Shown here: positions 39,184 through 48,618 of the stretch, in pieces | Layout of the letters: every line of letters begins with the position of its first letter | Position numbering within the stretch: position 1 is the stretch's first letter | Assembly (NCBI GenBank): GCA_016870275.1 | Contig: VGBZ01000002.1 | Coordinates: 1 to 64,000, forward strand | Direction: 5' to 3' | Source: Actinomycetota bacterium | Lineage (GTDB): Bacteria > Actinomycetota > Acidimicrobiia > Acidimicrobiales > Microtrichaceae | DNA length: 64,000 nucleotides | Made by a program: the position numbers and the translations under genes | The notes under the pieces: model-generated | What the model was told of the DNA's origin: nothing | Database searches by the model: none | What the model saw: only the letters and a program-made list of their open reading frames with translations

Positions 39184-40380
39184 TCAACCGAGACCGAGGG
39201 CCGAACGCAGATCCCCGACCCGGTCGGTGCGCTCCCAGGTGAACGTCTCGTTGCGACGACCGAAGTGGCCGTAGGCAGCCGTCGGGCGGTAGATCGGCCG
39301 GAGAAGGTCGAGCTCCCCGACGATGGCGGCCGGACGCAGGTCGAAGATCTCCCGAACGGCGGCATCGAGTGCCACCGGATCCACCTCGTTCGTCCCGAAG
39401 GTCTCCACGAGAATGCTCACCGGGTGGGCCACACCGATCGCATAGGCCACCTGGATCTCGCATCGCGAGGCCGCTCGAGATGCGACCACGTTCTTGGCCA
39501 CCCAGCGAGCGGCGTACGCCGCTGACCGGTCGACCTTCGACGGGTCCTTCCCGGAGAAGGCCCCACCCCCGTGACGGGCCGCACCGCCGTAGGTGTCGAC
39601 GATGATCTTCCGGCCGGTCAGTCCAGCATCACCGACCGGACCCCCGACCACGAAGCGTCCCGTCGGGTTGACGATCACCTCGTAGTCATCATCGGCGAAT
39701 GCCTCCGGGACGACCGGTCGCACCACGTGTTCGATGAGGTCGGGACGGATCTCGGTGTCGCGATCGACCCCATCGTTGTGTTGAGCCGAGATGAGCACGG
39801 TACGCAACGCCACAGGTCGACCCTCGGCGTACTCGAAGGTCACCTGGGTCTTTCCATCGGGACGCAGGTACGGAACAATTCCTGCGCGGCGCACCTCGGT
39901 GAGACGCTCCGCAAGCCGGTGGGCGAGATGGATCGGAAGCGGCATGAGCTCGTCGGTCTCATCGACGGCGTAGCCGAACATCATCCCCTGATCCCCGGCC
40001 CCTTGCCGATCGAGGTCGTCGGTGCCGGCGGAGCCGGATCGTTGCTCCTCGGAGTTCTCGACGCCGCCGGAGATGTCGGTCGACTGTGGATCGAGTCCCA
40101 CCAGAACGCCGCAGGTGTTCCCGTCGTAGCCGTAGCTCTCGCTGTCGTAGCCGACTTCGCAGATCGTGCGTCGGACCGTGCCGGGAATGTCGAGGTAACC
40201 CGACGTCGAGATCTCGCCGCCGACGATGGCGAGCCCGGTGGTCACGAACGTCTCGCACGCCACCCGGGCCGCAGGATCGACTGCCAGGAGGCCGTCGAGG
40301 ACGGCGTCGGAGATCTGATCCGCCAACTTGTCGGGGTGACCCTCGGTGACGGACTCGGAAGTGAACAACCAGCTCGACAA
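39184..40380 (-). CDS. metK: S-adenosylmethionine synthetase
   Basis: Makes SAM from methionine and ATP. The 398-residue protein has [13 protein letters not shown] at the N-terminus, [10 protein letters not shown], and the P-loop-like [17 protein letters not shown] start at TTG 40380 (encoded [10 protein letters not shown]): no ATG or GTG is in place, and GGAGAG lies 5 nt upstream. SAM supports the several methyltransferases in this window. Confidence 0.95.
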
Positions 40381-40402
40381 CGCCGCTCTCCGATCGGTCA
40401 GC

Positions 40403-41629
40403 TCAGCTCGATCCGGCTGGACGCCGAACGGCGACCACGGCGTCGAGCACAGCGTCGGCCACAGCGGACTTCGAACGCAGAGCAACGTGGTCGACCTCAC
40501 CGTCGGGGCCGAGGATCCGGACCTCGTTCGTGTCGTGTTCGAAGCCAACATCCGGGGCGGAGACGTCGTTGACGACGATCAGATCAATGCCCTTCTCGGC
40601 CAACTTCGCCGAGGCGGAGGCGAGGACATCGTTGGTCTCGGCGGCGAATCCGACGAGCGTGCGCCCGGCAATCCGCTGTGCACCGAGCTCGGCGAGGATG
40701 TCGACCGTCGGCTGCAACTCGATCGTGGGGATCCCGTCGCGCTTCTTCAGCTTGTCACCGGCAGGTGCCACCGGAGTGAAGTCCGCAACGGCAGCGGCCA
40801 TCACGACCACATCGACGGTCGGGGAGTGGTTGCGGACAGCCGCAAGCATCTCCGCAGCGGTGTCCACCTCGACGAGGACGTCGACGGGCGGTGTCGGAAC
40901 GGATCGAGAACCGCCAGCAGTGGTGATGAGGGTGACCGTGGCCCCACGTCGGACGGCTGCAGCAGCGAGGGCATGCCCCTGTTTGCCCGAGGACCGGTTG
41001 CCGAGGAATCGAACCGGATCGATCGGTTCACGGGTGCCGCCGGCGGTGATCACGATCCGGAGACCGCTCAGGTCGTCGCATTGTTGAGTTCCGAACAGGT
41101 CATCGACTGCAGCGAGGATCGACGAGGCATCAGCGAGCCGGCCGGGACCGACGTCGCCCCCGGCGAGGCGGCCGGACTCGGGTTCCACCACGACCACGCC
41201 CCGGGATCGGAGGAGGGTGAGGTTGTCGACCACAGCCGGGTGCTCCCACATCTCGGTGTGCATGGCGGGACACACGATCACCGGGGCACGGGTCGCAATG
41301 AGGGTGTTGGTGAGCAGATCGTGGGAGTAACCCGAGGCGTAGGCGGACAGCAGCCGGGCCGTGGCCGGGGCGACGAGCACCAGGTCAGCGCCACGGCCCA
41401 GTGTCGTATGTGGAATCGGGTCACTGTCATCCCACAGCGAGCGACGCACTGGCTCCGACGCCAGAGCGGAGAACGTCACCTCACCGATGAACCGCGTGGC
41501 GTCATCGGTGAGCACCGGAACGACGTGGGCGCCGGCATCGACGAGCTGACGACAAACCTCGACTGCCTTGTACGCCGCTATTCCGCCGCAGACCCCGAGG
41601 ACCACACGACGGCCGGCCAGCGCCGGCAC
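40403..41629 (-). CDS. coaBC: bifunctional phosphopantothenoylcysteine decarboxylase/ligase
   Basis: Two consecutive steps to coenzyme A. The N-terminal flavin-dependent CoaC domain (residues 1-185) has [11 protein letters not shown] and [15 protein letters not shown]. The C-terminal CoaB ligase has [24 protein letters not shown] and the KLKKRDG segment. GTG 41629 follows rpoZ by 12 bp, the usual actinobacterial order. Confidence 0.96.
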
Positions 41630-41641
41630 GACCGCTCCGAC

Positions 41642-41992
41642 TCAGTCCTCGGTCCCGACCGGCCCGGTCGGGAGCACGGCGTCGAACTCCTCGGCGCCCT
41701 CGATCTCGACGACCGGGAGCAGATCAGCTGGAATCTCTCGACCGGTGGCACCGCCGACACCCTCGACCTTGTCGGCGTCGAGTTCCTCGAAGGCGATCGA
41801 CAGGGGCTTCCGCGCCGTCGAGGTCACCTGAGGGCCGGCGTAACGACCAAGCGCATCGCCGAGTTGTCCGTAGTAGCTGTTGATGTCGCGGGCACGCCGG
41901 GCGCTGATCGTCACGAGCGAGAACTTGGACCCCGCTCGCTCGAGGAGGCCCTCGATCGGCGGCGAGATCATCGAGTTGGTGGGATCGGACAC
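41642..41992 (-). CDS. rpoZ: RNA polymerase omega subunit
   Basis: Small structural subunit that chaperones beta-prime. The 116-residue protein has the family core: MISPPIEGLLERAGSKFSLV, then SARRARDINSYY, and an acidic C-terminal tail after RKPLSIAFEEL. GTG 41992 has GGAG 5 nt upstream; an ATG seven codons later is possible. Between the mIHF-gmk fusion and coaBC. Confidence 0.93.
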   Translation of the reverse strand: MSDPTNSMISPPIEGLLERAGSKFSLVTISARRARDINSYYGQLGDALGRYAGPQVTSTARKPLSIAFEELDADKVEGVGGATGREIPADLLPVVEIEGAEEFDAVLPTGPVGTED

Positions 41993-42077
41993 GGAGACTC
42001 CGCTCGTTCGGGGGTACTGACCATCCCAGACACCATCGGCAGGTCCGAGACGGCTTTGCGATGCTACCAGAGCGACT

Positions 42078-42977
42078 TCAGGCTCCGGTACCGGACCTCT
42101 CGGCCCGCACCCGTGCCGCTGTCCGGGCATCGTCGAGGATGCGCCGAACCTCGGCCACTGCGGATTCGAGGTCACCGTTGATCAACGTGATCGCCCCGAG
42201 GTCCACCGCCGCCGCCCGCTCCTCGATGGACCGCTCGAGTCGCTGGCGGATTCGCTCCTCGGAGTCGCCACGCCCACGGAGCCTCGCCTCCTGCGTGGCT
42301 GCATCAGGTGCGTCGACGAACACCAACACCGCCTCGGGGTAGCGCTCCCGGACAGCGGCGGCACCCGCCACGTCGATCTCGAACAACACGTCGAAACCGA
42401 CCGGTGGATCAGGGAGCGGACTCCCCTGCCGGTAGTCGAGGAACTCCACCCACTCGAGGAACCCACCCGCTCGAGCATGGGCATCGAACTCATCGAGCGA
42501 GGCGAAGTGGTACGCCTGGAGATCCTCTCCGATCCGAGGGTTCCGTGTGGTCCACGAGCGGGACAACCACAGCGTCGGCTCCTCGGCCAGCACGGATGCA
42601 GTGATCGTGCCCTTGCCGACACCGCCCGGACCCGAGATCACCATGACCGCTGTGGCCGGCCGAAGGACGCCGAGATCGTCCGAACCGAGGGGGAACACCG
42701 AACGGATCCGACGAGCCTCACCGACGTCGAGACCACCGACCGGCCGGCGCGGATCCACACGGAGTTGAGCGAGCGCTCGGCGGGTGTCGACCTTGCGGGC
42801 CCCCGGCAGCGATTCGAGCACGAAACCGATCGAGGTCGACGACCACGGGGCGCTCGGGGCCTGCTCCAGACACTCAGTGAGCGTCAGGTCGCTCCGATTG
42901 AGGGCCTCGCCGAGAGCCGCCCGTTGCGAGCGGACCTCCGAGGCCCAGGCGATCACCTTATTGCGATCAGCGGCCAC
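42078..42977 (-). CDS. gmk: mIHF-like domain fused to guanylate kinase
   Basis: One uninterrupted reading frame of 299 residues. Residues about 10-92 resemble actinobacterial integration host factor (mIHF): NRSDLTLTECLEQA, then FVLESLPGARKVDTRRALAQL and PRRPVGGL, the helix-two-turn-helix DNA-binding part. Residues 112-299 are a complete guanylate kinase with P-loop GPGGVGKGT (116-124), SRSWTTRNPR and DYRQGSPLP. In mycobacteria mihF and gmk are adjacent separate genes. GTG 42977 follows pyrF by 4 nt; internal ATG 42644 could also yield kinase alone, but the mIHF part has no stop of its own. Confidence 0.88.
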   Translation of the reverse strand: MAADRNKVIAWASEVRSQRAALGEALNRSDLTLTECLEQAPSAPWSSTSIGFVLESLPGARKVDTRRALAQLRVDPRRPVGGLDVGEARRIRSVFPLGSDDLGVLRPATAVMVISGPGGVGKGTITASVLAEEPTLWLSRSWTTRNPRIGEDLQAYHFASLDEFDAHARAGGFLEWVEFLDYRQGSPLPDPPVGFDVLFEIDVAGAAAVRERYPEAVLVFVDAPDAATQEARLRGRGDSEERIRQRLERSIEERAAAVDLGAITLINGDLESAVAEVRRILDDARTAARVRAERSGTGA

Positions 42978-42981
42978 CGAT

Positions 42982-43698
42982 TCAGATCGCCGCAGCGACC
43001 GCAGCGGCGGCGGCGATGGGGTCCGCTGCCTGTGTCACGGTCCGGCCGATCACGAGCAGGTCGGCTCCGGCCTCGGAGGCCGACTCGGGAGTGGCCCAAC
43101 GGGCCTGATCGTCGAGCCCGCTGCCCGGCAGGCGGATTCCGGGGACGACCCGTTTGAGTCGAGGGGCCAGATCGAACGCAGTCTGCAGATCGGCTGCAGC
43201 GAGCACCAGTCCACCGCAGCCGCCTTCCACTGCCACCCGCACCCGGTTGGGCACCACGTGGTCGGGTGCGGAGTCATCGCTGGTGAGCACCGTCACCCCG
43301 AGCGCGCACGGAGCCGGGAGACCGGCGCGGTCGGCGCCGTCGAGCAGGCCATCGACGCCAGCTCGGAGCATGTCCACGCCGCCCATGGCGTGCAGCGTGA
43401 GGTAGTCGACGCCGAGCGCTCCGAGGACTCGACAGGCCCGGTTCACCGTGGTGGGGATGTCCAACATCTTGAGATCGAGGAACACCTCGTACCCGAAGTC
43501 GCGCAATGAACCGATCGCATCGGGCCCGGCGGCGCTGAACAGCTCGAGTCCGATCTTGGCGACACCGAAGTAGTCACGGAGCGCTCCAGCGGTCCGCAGG
43601 GCCTCCACGAGATCGTCGACGTCGAGGACGAGCGCCAGCCGCTGGCGGACCTCGTCGGGCACGCCCGCACCCGTGGTGCGGGGATCGTCCTCAGCCAT
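42982..43698 (-). CDS. pyrF: orotidine 5'-phosphate decarboxylase
   Basis: Final step to UMP. The 238-residue TIM barrel has the catalytic DLKMLDIPTT (the K-x-x-D network) and the phosphate-binding GADLLVIGRTVT near the C-terminus. ATG 43698 overlaps the pyrD stop by 8 nt with CGGAGGAG upstream. Confidence 0.95.
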   Translation of the reverse strand: MAEDDPRTTGAGVPDEVRQRLALVLDVDDLVEALRTAGALRDYFGVAKIGLELFSAAGPDAIGSLRDFGYEVFLDLKMLDIPTTVNRACRVLGALGVDYLTLHAMGGVDMLRAGVDGLLDGADRAGLPAPCALGVTVLTSDDSAPDHVVPNRVRVAVEGGCGGLVLAAADLQTAFDLAPRLKRVVPGIRLPGSGLDDQARWATPESASEAGADLLVIGRTVTQAADPIAAAAAVAAAI

Positions 43699-44638
43699 GA
43701 ACTCCTCCGATCAACTCCCGCACGCTACCCACGCCGTGCTGCTCGCACCACGATGCCAATCCTCCGAGAACGTGTGCAGTGGCACGCGGGTCAGCGAACG
43801 TCGCCGTGCCGACCTGCACTGCTGACGCACCGGCGAGGAGGAACTCCACTGCGTGTGCTCCCGTCGTGATGCCGCCGACGCCGATGATCGGCAGGTCGGG
43901 GAGCGCAGCGCGAACGTTGTGGACGGCTCGCACGGCGACCGGGCGAATGGCAGGCCCCGACAGTCCCCCGCCGCCGGCGCCGAGCAGCGGGCGACGGTGC
44001 TCGACGTCGATCACCATGCCGAGCAGGGTGTTGACGAGGGTCACGGCCTCGGCACCCGCCTCTCCGACTGCTCGGGCCACGTCGACGAGCCGGTCGGTGT
44101 TGGGACTGAGCTTGGCCCAACGGGGTACGCCCGCAGCGGCGCACGCCGCGACCACCGCTGCGGCGGCGTCAGGGTCGTGCGCGAACAGGTGGGCTCCACC
44201 GTCGAGGTTGGGACAGGACAGGTTCACCTCGACTGCCACCACAGCCGACGGCAGGTCACTCAATGCCGCCGCCGCATCGGCGTAGTCCTCGACGGATCGT
44301 CCCCAGATGCTCGCCACGACGGTGGCACCGGCCGACACGAGCGCCGGGAGCTGCTCACGCCGCCAGGCCGCCACACCGGGTCCCTGGAGTCCGACGCTGT
44401 TGAGCATCCCGGAGTCGGTGCCGTGGACCCGCGGGGCGGCGTTGCCCGGCCAGGGTTCGGCTCCGAGCGACTTCACCACGATCGCTCCCACCTCATCGAG
44501 GTCGACGAATCCACTGAGCTCGGTTCCGTACCCGGCCGTTCCCGAGGCGGTCATGACCGGGTTCCGCAGTTGGACCGATCCGACATCGGTTCGCAGGTCG
44601 ACCGATGCCGACGTCCGGGGGCTCCGCTTCCGACTCAC
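43691..44638 (-). CDS. pyrD: dihydroorotate dehydrogenase, class 1B-type
   Basis: Flavin enzyme oxidising dihydroorotate. The 315-residue protein has [25 protein letters not shown] (class 1 catalytic Cys), and [15 protein letters not shown] for FMN phosphate. Class 1B enzymes use an electron-transfer partner PyrK; none is seen here. GTG 44638 overlaps the carB stop by GTGA. In mycobacteria pyrD lies elsewhere, so its place in the pyr cluster is a lineage difference. Confidence 0.92.
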
Positions 44639-47600
44639 CCGTCGTGGTCCCGATGGTAGGACTGGAGGCTCCGGACCTGCAGGTCCGCCGTCATCCACTC
44701 GGCGAGGCCGTTGGCGGCTGCGAGTGCCGCTGCTGCGGTGGTGAGGAGGGGAATCCCGGCTCGTCCGGCGGCACGCCGGAGGTGGGCACCGTCGGCCCTC
44801 GGACCCCGGCCCCTCGGGCTGTTCACCACGAGTTGGACCCGCCCTCCCTCGATGAGATCGACACCGTCGAGACCGCCCTCCGGGTCGCCTTCGGCGCGTT
44901 GCAGCTTGGCGACCACCTCTGCCACCGGGAGGCCCTCACGAACGAATGCCGCCGCGGTGCCCGATGTCGCCACGAGGTCGAATCCGAGCTCGTGGAAGCG
45001 CCGTGCCGCCTGCAGTCCGATCCGCTTGTCCCGGTCGGCGAGCGAGAAGAACACCGTTCCCGACTGCGGCATCCGGTCCCCGGCCGCCAACTGGGACTTG
45101 GCGAACGCCAGCGGGAACGAGCGGTCGATGCCCATGACCTCACCGGTGGAACGCATCTCCGGGCCGAGGAGGGCATCGATGTCGGGGAACCGGTTCCACG
45201 GGAGGACAGCCTCCTTGACGGCCACGTGTTTGCCGGCGCTCGGAGCCACCAGGAGGCCCTCGGCTCGCAGCTCGGCGAGCGTGGCGCCGCACATCACCCT
45301 GGCTGCAACCTTCACGAGAGGCACGCCGGTGGCCTTGGCCACGAACGGGACGGTCCTCGAGGCGCGTGGGTTGGCCTCGATCACGAAGACCTGACCGCCG
45401 GAACCGGACGCACTCTCGTCGTCACCGACGCGCTTGACGGCGAACTGCACGTTGATCAGTCCTCGCACATCGAGAGCCGCAGCGATGGACCGGGTGTGTC
45501 CCTCGATCACGGCGATCGTCTCGGGAGAGAGGCCGACCGGGGGGATGACACAGGCACTGTCGCCGGAGTGCACCCCCGCTTCCTCGACGTGCTCCATGAT
45601 CCCGCCGATGATCACCTCGCCGGTCGAGTCCCGAATGGCGTCGACGTCGACCTCGGTGGCGTCCTCGAGGAAACGATCGATCAACACCGGCCGCTCAGCG
45701 GCGAGTCCACCCTCCCGTCCGAGCGAACCGTCCGCAGCGATCGCCGACCATGCGCTCTCGAGTCCGTCGACGTCGTAGACGATCTCCATGGCCCGTCCAC
45801 CGAGCACGTAGGACGGGCGGATCAGGGCGGGGAATCCGATGCGTTCGACGATGCTCCGGGCGGCCTCGATGGTCGTTGCGGTGCCCCCCGCCGGCTGGGG
45901 AATCTCGAGCCGGGCACACAGCGAGTTCCAGCGGTCACGGTCCTCGGCGAGGTCGATGCTTCTCGGCGAGGTGCCGAGGATCAACTCCGGTGGGAGCGCT
46001 CCGGCGAGCTTGAGCGGCGTCTGACCACCGAGCGCCACGATGACTCCGACGAGTCGACCCCCACCAGCCTCGGCCGAACGACGTTCGGAGTCGATTACGT
46101 TGAGGACGCCCTCCACCGACAACGGTTCGAAGTACAGGCGGTCCGAGGTGTCGTAGTCGGTGGAGACGGTCTCGGGATTGCAGTTGACCATGACCGTCTC
46201 GAACCCGGCGTCGGCCAGAGCGAAACACGCGTGGACACAGCAGTAGTCGAACTCGATTCCCTGGCCGATGCGATTGGGTCCGGACCCGAGGATGAGGACC
46301 TTCTCGCCAGAGGATGGCTCCACTTCCGAGGTGTCCTCGTAGGTGCCGTAGTGGTACGGCGTCGACGCCTCGAACTCCGCAGCACAGGTATCGACGGTCT
46401 TGTAGGTCACCTCGACCCCGGCGGCGAGGCGCGCCGAGCGGACCGCGGACTCGTCTGTCCCCCACAGCCAGGCGAGTTGAGCGTCGCCGAAGCCGAGTCG
46501 CTTGGCGCGACGCCACTCCGGCGGGATCAGCGAAGCCGGTGCGCCCTCGATCGCCACGAGCGCCTCCCGCTCCTCGCTGATCGCAAGCATCTGATCGAGG
46601 AACCACGGATCGATTCCGCACGCCTCGTGGACCTCCGAGACGGGGACCCCACGCCGCAGAAGCGACTCGACTCCGAAGATCCGGTCGGGGCTGGCCACTG
46701 CCACGTCGGCGAGCAGATCACCGGTGGCGACGTCATCGACGAGCACCTCGGCCGGATCGGCGTTGAGCCCACTCCGGCCCTGTTCGAGGGACCGGAGCGC
46801 CTTCTGGAGGGACTCGGGAAACGTGCGGCCGATCGCCATGGCCTCACCGACGGACTGCATCTGCGTACCCAGTCTGGGCTCGACCCCGGGAAGCTTCTCG
46901 AAGGCCCAGCGAGGAATCTTCGTGACGACGTAGTCGATGACCGGCTCGAAGCTCGCCGGGGTCACCCGGGTGATGTCGTTCGGGATCTCGTCGAGCGTGT
47001 AGCCCACCGCGAGCTTGGCTGCGATCTTCGCAATGGGGAAGCCGGTCGCCTTGGAGGCCAGTGCCGAGGAACGGCTCACGCGTGGGTTCATCTCGATGAC
47101 CACCTGATCACCGTTGGCGGGATTCACGGCGAACTGCACATTGGAGCCGCCCGTCTCCACACCGACCCGCCGGATGCAGGCAAAGGCCGCATCCCGCATC
47201 TCCTGGTACTCGACGTCGCTGAGGGTCTGAGCGGGTGCGACGGTGATCGAATCGCCCGTGTGCACACCCATCGGGTCGACGTTCTCGATCGAGCAGATGA
47301 TCACGCAGTTGTCGGCGCGGTCCCGCATCACCTCGAGTTCGTACTCCTTCCATCCGGCGATCGAGCGCTCGATGAGGATCTCGGAGATGGGACTCGCCGC
47401 AAGGCCCCGCCCGGCGATCAGGTCGAACTCGGCGGGGGTCGAGGCGATGCCGGTACCTCTCCCACCGAGGATGTACGCGGGACGGATCACCACCGGAAGA
47501 CCGAGTCGCTCCAGAACGGCCCGGGCCTCGTCCATGGTGTGCGCCGTCCCCGAGGCCGGAACAGCCAACCCGATCTCAATCATCGCCTGCTTGAAACGCT

Positions 47601-47988
47601 CGCGATCCTCTGCGGTGGCGATGGCCTCGGCATCGGCTCCGATGAGTTCGATCCCCCGGTCGGCGAGGGCACCCGATTCGGAGAGTTCCATGGCCAGGTT
47701 CAGCGCCGTCTGCCCTCCGAGCGTCGGGAGCACCGCATCGGGGCGCTCGACGTCGAGGATCCGCTCGAGGACCTCAGCGACGAGCGGTTCGACGTACGTG
47801 GCGTCGGCGAAGTCCGGATCCGTCATGATCGTGGCCGGATTGGAGTTGGCGAGGATCACCCGGTATCCCTCCTCGCGCAGGACCCGGCACGCCTGGGTGC
47901 CGGAGTAGTCGAACTCGCAGGCCTGCCCGATGACGATCGGCCCAGAGCCGATGATCAGGATGGACTCAAGGTCACTTCGACGGGGCAC
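44635..47988 (-). CDS. carB: carbamoyl-phosphate synthase large subunit
   Basis: Makes carbamoyl phosphate from bicarbonate, ATP and ammonia delivered by CarA. The 1,117-residue protein has two homologous ATP-grasp halves, each starting with a G-S-G-P/N loop ([21 protein letters not shown] and [18 protein letters not shown]), and a C-terminal MGS-like allosteric domain. GTG 47988 is preceded by GAGGAGTAG. It is separated from carA by an opposite-strand gene. Confidence 0.97.
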
Positions 47989-48126
47989 ACCTACTCCTCA
48001 TGGATGCGGGACATGGATGCGGGACGCCGAGGCGGGCGACCGCCTCGGCTTCAGATTCGGAATGCGGGACCGGGGTCATGGCCCCCGATGCCGCCGAGGA
48101 CTGCTGTGGTGTGGAACGCTGCACCG

Positions 48127-48618
48127 GTGAAGTTCGGTTTCGAACAGCAGTGGAACGCCAGCGCCGAGGACGTCATCGAGGTCTACCTCGATCCCGACTT
48201 CTGGGGAACTCTCGATGGGCTCTCCGCCACCAGCGCTCCCGAAGTGCTCGAGGTCACCCGGAAACAGGACTCCGCCGTGGTTCGCCTGCGCTACCGACTC
48301 ACCGTCTCGTTGCCGTCGGAGGCATCGAGGTTCATCGACACCAACGATGTGGCATGGGTCGAGCAGACGTCGTGGGATCTGCTGAGTCGTAGCGCCTCGA
48401 TCAGCTTCGCTCCGGATCAGGCGGCCTCGCTGATGCGGGCTGCTGCAGAGGCGACGTTGATCTCCGAAGGCGACACGGCCCTGCGCCAGATCCGCGGCGA
48501 CATCAGGGTGCGGATCCCGCTGCTCGGCAGCCGGGTGGAGCGAGTCGTGGTGGAGGGTATCGGCGATCACCTCGGCGAAGAGGCCGACGCCGTTGCCGGA
48601 CGGCTCCCCTCGTCGTAG
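48127..48618 (+). CDS. DUF2505-like START-fold protein
   Basis: A 163-residue protein on the strand opposite to its neighbours. KFGFEQQWNASAEDVIEVYLDPDFW, then the strand pattern with VVRLRYRLTVSLP and the closing long helix with LLGSRVERVVVEGIGDHL, fit the actinobacterial DUF2505 family (SRPBCC/START-like ligand-binding fold). No catalytic motif is visible and the function is unknown. GTG 48127 is the best start; no strong ribosome-binding site. It splits carA from carB and ends 11 bp from the carA stop. Confidence 0.78.
   Translation: MKFGFEQQWNASAEDVIEVYLDPDFWGTLDGLSATSAPEVLEVTRKQDSAVVRLRYRLTVSLPSEASRFIDTNDVAWVEQTSWDLLSRSASISFAPDQAASLMRAAAEATLISEGDTALRQIRGDIRVRIPLLGSRVERVVVEGIGDHLGEEADAVAGRLPSS

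Follow-up and report, generated by a model that had tools for sequence, protein, structure and literature searches.

The closest described counterparts of the gene reported here are the DNA-binding protein mIHF and the guanylate kinase (GMK) of Mycobacterium tuberculosis (Rv1388 and Rv1389) and the protein sIHF of Streptomyces coelicolor (SCO1480). mIHF is described as essential in mycobacteria (PMC10028186) and GMK as essential in M. tuberculosis (PMC5686395), and gmk-rpoZ next to mihF is presented as the usual gene order (PMC6155035). The window analyzed in this study is the whole 64,000-nucleotide stretch at the start of contig VGBZ01000002.1 (assembly GCA_016870275.1, Actinomycetota, Acidimicrobiia). 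It contains an mihF-gmk fusion gene, in which mIHF and GMK are joined as one continuous protein.

The fusion gene is located on the minus strand (42977..42078) and consists of 299 codons plus stop, with a GTG start codon at 42977 and the stop included at 42078. The 299 amino acid frame contains zero stops between its two domains. The single frame of an mIHF-like region and a complete GMK that had been proposed in the initial annotation of the locus was borne out, and both domains were matched by profiles. The N-terminal mIHF/sIHF-like domain (residues 1-94, 42696..42977, minus strand) is followed by a linker (residues 95-109, 42651..42695, minus strand), which spans the region of the former overlap of mihF stop and gmk start, and by the GMK domain with the conserved P-loop GPGGVGKGT (residues 110-286, 42120..42650, minus strand). 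The constituent parts are well known. A literature search of titles and abstract openings found no description of an mIHF-GMK fusion. The fusion is real and recurrent, and it looks functional as well. The gene probably encodes a genuine two-domain protein that is produced chiefly as a single chain of about 32 kDa, composed of an mIHF-like head, a linker of about 15 residues and an intact GMK, and that would form a GMK dimer with two tethered heads and keep both jobs.

The head was compared with mIHF profiles and with known structures. A comparison of residues 1-95 with mIHF profiles had been suggested as a check, and similarity was found: the NCBIfam model NF041260 (actinobacterial IHF) matched residues 4-86 with an E-value of 2e-8 and 34.7 bits in the protein scan and with 36.8 bits in the genome scan, both under the curated NCBI cut-off of 60 bits. 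By its sequence, the head was filed as mIHF-like and not as a certified member of NF041260. The three members of the genus with separate (split) mihF and gmk genes are also under this cut-off (41.2, 31.5, and 29.1 bits). The Pfam scan at E-values up to 1 gave no match in residues 1-95. A PDB sequence search with residues 1-100 returned only mIHF (6tob, E 1.5e-4) and sIHF (4itq, E 8.5e-4). A predicted AlphaFold2 (AF2) model of residues 1-105, based on 36 related sequences, consists of five helices with a mean predicted local distance difference test (pLDDT) of 90.4. Four PDB chains matched this model at E ≤ 0.001, namely two chains of sIHF 6bek, sIHF 4itq, and mIHF 6tob, and the next-best fold matches were ribosomal proteins and topoisomerase VI-B at E-values of about 0.1 or worse. 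The model thus predicts an mIHF fold with a helix-two-turn-helix (H2TH). In an alignment of 36 mIHF rows (A3), the H2TH core corresponds to residues 55-69 (ESLPGARKVDTRRAL, 42771..42815, minus strand); E55 and R66 are invariant, P58, G59, K62, and R67 are nearly invariant, and all of them are present in the window protein. The head is not a free-standing protein of about 105 residues, being fused in frame to GMK. NF041260 has the NCBI type 'equivalog_domain', which hints that its curators may have met it within larger proteins. A combined alignment of fusions and separate domains (A2) was rejected for structure prediction, as the mIHF-only rows had a lower identity than in A3, a sign of misalignment, and A3 and A4 (the GMK alignment) were folded instead.

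Weak NF041260 matches were also observed in the eight scored genomes of family f1 (the window genome, G087, G095, G256, G289, G414, G415, and G416), with E-values of 3e-6 to 2e-10 for fused and split genes alike. For most other genomes of the order, among the matches listed, E-values of 1e-30 to 1e-40 were obtained. In several of the f1 rows GARKV replaces GVGKV in the H2TH core.

The kinase half was detected by Pfam PF00625 (residues 111-283, 58.8 bits, over the cut-off of 25.2) and by TIGR03263 (residues 110-281, 127.2 bits, under the equivalog cut-off of 160.45 bits). In 36 aligned rows (A4), G116-T124, S141, T143-R145, R148, Y156, E175, D202, R232, R236, R246, and N267 are invariant; we take these to be P-loop, GMP/ATP-site and lid residues. 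The predicted full-length model has a mean pLDDT of 93.2 and a predicted TM-score (pTM) of 0.73, with a pLDDT of 67 in residues 91-100 and of 83 in residues 101-110, which suggests two good domains whose relative placement is not certain. Every one of the 50 PDB fold matches listed for this model is a guanylate kinase.

The origin of the fusion could be traced within the genus, for which six genomes were available. Three are fused (the window genome, G095, and G289) and three are split (G414, G415, and G416). In G095 (L011/L060) and G289 (L012/L061) the same uninterrupted frame was found, its 897 coding bases being gap-free with 67 and 63% identity, and the linker is of identical length in all three fused members. 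In the split members, the mihF stop and the gmk start share a GTGA. Among 30 family loci read (of 33 genomes, leaving out G406, G408, and G417), four are fused (the window, G095, G289, and G256) and 26 are split, 22 of the latter with a 4-nucleotide ATGA/GTGA overlap. G407 is represented in this count by locus L080, taken as the same contig as L046. At the junction of G289, GTGACC with the old gmk start is retained in frame with mihF (FPL-AP-VTDGRLRPGTAV), and substitutions have eroded the former gmk start codon in the window and G095. Judging from these junctions, the fusion most likely goes back to a frame change in the stretch from the conserved FPL to the former start of gmk, and its origin is placed inside the genus, beside the GTGA overlap. 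In such a coupled arrangement, an adjacent frame change would bring both genes into one frame. Re-splitting of an ancestral fusion is disfavoured, because the split genomes would need to recreate an overlap that is common to most of the family. The initial annotation had described the mIHF stop codon as missing. There is indeed no stop between the domains, but the relatives point to a frame change beside the GTGA overlap and not to a plain loss.

A quick GMK tree of 98 rows places the three fused genes in one clade with a value of 100 in the Shimodaira-Hasegawa-like approximate likelihood ratio test (SH-aLRT). It adjoins split G414 and G415, and split G416 is located nearby with a less firm placement. 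For the three fused genes (299 codons, no indels), the mIHF part has ratios of nonsynonymous to synonymous substitutions (dN/dS) of 0.30, 0.40, and 0.30, and the GMK part of 0.23, 0.22, and 0.17; these values are rough, as dS is 0.74-1.27 in both domains. For the 16-codon linker (0.93, 0.27, and 0.66) and the 13-codon tail (0.78, 0.40, and 0.23) the stretches are too short to judge. The ratios indicate that purifying selection acts on the mIHF and GMK parts.

The fusion design is not confined to the lineage of the window. In a class search of 395 genomes at least five full-length, stop-free fusions were found among the matches listed (the window genome, G095, G289, G256, and G339). This count is a lower bound, as the fused G325 is outside those listed. 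A search for the same fusion in Acidimicrobiia, as had been proposed along with the initial annotation, was successful in G095, G289, G256, G339, and G325. Family f51 includes genus g176, whose two genomes (G339 and G325) are fused; the 6 other f51 genomes searched are all split. J010 (L066) is also fused. The contig of L066 (RFFY01000018.1) is labelled Actinomyces sp., but its GMK is placed among those of the window's class, and it is probably a mislabelled draft, as is probably L077 (CAMDLX010000035.1), labelled Bifidobacterium breve. The GMK of G403 falls in the IMCC26207 clade.

A phylum sample of 396 genomes was searched as well, and among the matches listed family f111, probably Microbacteriaceae, was conspicuous. 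This probable assignment draws on the number of genus codes in f111 (79 in 80 genomes), to be compared with the 71 taxa that NCBI places directly below Microbacteriaceae. The f111 search covered 80 genomes. A GMK match was obtained in 79, and 74 of the latter carry the fusion, which was recognized in 43 by locus reading and in 31 by an uninterrupted match across both domains. Twelve f111 genomes showed one stop within the match, and on reading all 12 loci turned out to be fused. At the f111 loci L157 and L181, mIHF lies in the GMK frame and the match start runs beyond the upstream end of the frame. Five genomes are exceptions: G784 has its mIHF in a different frame, and in G785, G788, G840, and G845 no mIHF was found beside gmk; three of these four genomes have no NF041260 match at all and one has a weak match elsewhere. 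In G785, G840, and G845 (L218, L221, and L222), with neither an mIHF next to GMK nor an NF041260 match in the genome, the head seems to be lost. The f111 fusions must sit in public databases, presumably named guanylate kinase. On the GMK tree, five changes between the labels fusion and split were counted, two of which are forced by the starred, well-supported branches. Long frames around gmk in GC-rich genomes (e.g., f71, f69, and f98) were dropped as fusions, since mIHF is in another frame in those that were read.

The recurrence also bears on the question whether a frameshift error in sequencing or assembly might have joined two real genes. The draft assembly of the window genome comprises 137 contigs, the fusions of G256 and J010 are each supported by a single draft genome, and one other apparent fusion, G688 (family f101), is artefactual and was dropped, with unknown bases at the junction and a TAG at this position in its genus-mate G661. 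Against this, the same gap-free frame of the same length is present in two further genus members, two of the three fused genes have lost the old gmk start through substitutions, and f111 fusions also occur in single-contig genomes (e.g., G834, G781, and G823). A sequencing error removing a stop between the domains, which the initial annotation had named as a possible objection, is excluded by the two independent relatives. For the genus of the window the artefact is already refuted, and its probability is negligible.

In the window genome (3.2 Mb draft, 96.3% complete), a single match to mIHF and a single strong match to GMK were detected, both within the fusion frame. The next-best match to the GMK model reaches 17.7 bits, and one HU-type match is present in addition. 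The earlier suggestion that DNA binding could be delivered solely by the fusion agrees with this for binding of the mIHF type, which would come from the fusion as the sole mIHF match found in this 96.3% complete draft. When 21 genomes were probed with NF041260, exactly one match, located in the fused frame, was obtained for every fused genome (13 in all, with 5 from the window's class and 8 from f111).

One product is the better guess over two on the basis of the sequence. The initial annotation had proposed that an internal ATG at 42644 might also give free kinase. This ATG exists (Met112, 42642..42644, minus strand) and sits where the first strand of the kinase begins, but G095 and G289, the two fused genus-mates, have CTG in its place, and it has no Shine-Dalgarno-like site: its upstream 17 nucleotides pair with the anti-Shine-Dalgarno sequence at -2.8 kcal/mol, which is not stronger than the background of the gene (median -3.2 kcal/mol). 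The fusion's own GTG likewise is without such a site (-2.1 kcal/mol). A test for internal starts was carried out for f111, in which 45 fusions were entered and 43 were usable (two were without a P-loop by the pattern used). An ATG within 17 codons around the GMK start was found in 2 of the 43, and ATG and GTG together were observed 47 times in these codons, compared to 39.5 expected. Most of these codons are a GTG located two codons ahead of the P-loop motif, where it encodes a strand valine. That free GMK is made in addition to the fusion, by internal initiation at ATG 42644 or nearby or by proteolysis of the linker, is consistent with the persistence of the old gmk GTG inside the G289 frame and with the linker having the lowest confidence of the inner parts of the model. 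Given the CTG in the relatives, the background-level pairing and the rarity of ATG in f111, a second product is nevertheless unlikely.

For the single two-domain polypeptide, the fused kinase would be expected from its sequence to keep the conversion of GMP to GDP, and the fused head may keep its DNA binding. Bacterial GMK is described as a dimer (PMC6783271). Because bacterial GMK is dimeric and sIHF-type proteins bind DNA as monomers, a GMK dimer would, by analogy, present two DNA-binding heads and hold the two activities at 1:1. The likeliest cause of persistence would be that both parts tolerate joining and stay co-expressed, rather than that a nucleotide level controls DNA binding. For M. 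smegmatis carrying IHF-EGFP or IHF-mNeonGreen fusions, growth like that of the wild type is described (PMC10028186). According to PMC6155035, a mihF deletion required gmk-rpoZ in trans owing to polar effects.

Several points weigh against this reading. Both the mIHF part and the GMK part are divergent, as judged from their scores under the NF041260 and TIGR03263 cut-offs. Neither GTG 42977 nor ATG 42644 has a Shine-Dalgarno-like site, which leaves the choice of start not settled by sequence. In 4 of 79 f111 genomes GMK is without a neighbouring mIHF, and some lineages can thus lose the head. The independent fusions may be fewer than the five label changes. mIHF is reported to rank in the top ten of M. 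tuberculosis proteins by abundance (PMC6155035), which is hard to reconcile with a 1:1 tie to GMK, so that the head may have a diminished role in the fusion. If mIHF is abundant elsewhere, a tie to the enzyme would limit mIHF or inflate GMK, which, together with the three f111 genomes without an mIHF match, speaks against a major architectural role.

A regulatory role of the fusion was considered as well, in which GMP, GDP, GTP or (p)ppGpp bound to the kinase would alter the lid or the dimer and hence DNA binding of the head, or DNA would alter the kinase, with purine status acting on DNA architecture. Recurrence and the retention in 74 of 79 f111 genomes would fit such a role. Inhibition of GMK by (p)ppGpp is described for several phyla as relying on lid and dimer contacts (PMC6783271), and in actinobacteria GMK is said to be inhibited in most cases, with the M. 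tuberculosis GMK as an exception (PMC5686395). However, the linker is short and of low predicted confidence, and the pTM of 0.73 yields no certain domain interface. Linker length and sequence vary among the separate fusions, which argues against one conserved allosteric contact, and a neutral joining of overlapping genes also predicts recurrence. That purine status is coupled to DNA architecture is conceivable, but a regulatory fusion of this kind appears quite improbable. Equally doubtful is a bivalent DNA-bridging factor built on the GMK dimer, with DNA binding switched by guanine nucleotides or (p)ppGpp, that evolved several times. If true, a nucleotide enzyme would itself be a nucleoid-associated protein.

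The neighbourhood of the two-domain gene is that of an mIHF-type gene, with pyrF upstream and gmk and rpoZ downstream. All neighbours named here are encoded on the minus strand. Upstream, pyrF (orotidine-5'-phosphate decarboxylase, 42982..43698, TIGR01740 117.9 bits) ends with its stop 4 nucleotides from the GTG of the fusion and is preceded by pyrD (dihydroorotate dehydrogenase, 43691..44698, TIGR01037 298.3 bits). Downstream are rpoZ (RNA polymerase omega, 41642..42010, TIGR00690 49.9 bits, start codon tentative), coaBC (40403..41629, TIGR00521 378.2 bits), and metK (39184..40551, TIGR01034 553.7 bits). We take pyrF upstream of mihF to be the usual order. Elsewhere in the window, an open frame of 1337 codons (44605-48618, plus strand) lies antisense to the open reading frame 44635-47988, which was read as carB by eye, and is likely a by-product of the high GC content.

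We know of no established reason for the adjacency of mihF and gmk. The fusion allows a clean test of whether this adjacency reflects a functional link, and if f111 is Microbacteriaceae, culturable species exist for such a test. The recurrent joining of the two genes, in which the fused copy is the sole mIHF match of the probed genomes, constitutes natural evidence for the ability of both proteins to work at 1:1 in one molecule.

In comparison with the known systems, mIHF (6tob) and GMK (1znw) of M. tuberculosis resemble the window protein by sequence and fold homology of both halves, with 26% identity of the mIHF half to 6tob in a structural alignment, but they are two separate proteins instead of one polypeptide. 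The S. coelicolor sIHF (DNA-bound 6bek, and 4itq) is closest in fold to residues 1-105 (E 1.1e-5 to 6.8e-5, TM-score 0.85-0.87 normalized by target). It is free-standing and is described as binding DNA as a monomer (PMC10028186), whereas the window protein is fused and its DNA binding is putative. Compared with bacterial guanylate kinases (PF00625/TIGR03263), the window domain is complete, with the P-loop and the other residues invariant over the 36 rows; the window protein differs in its additional N-terminal mIHF head and in its score under the TIGR03263 cut-off. The fusions of f111 and of genus g176 in f51 share the domain order in one frame with the window protein, and the 10 of these genomes probed have one mIHF match each, which is fused. 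They differ from it in their separate places on the GMK tree, in their linker lengths, with almost no linker in f51, and in their mIHF sequences.
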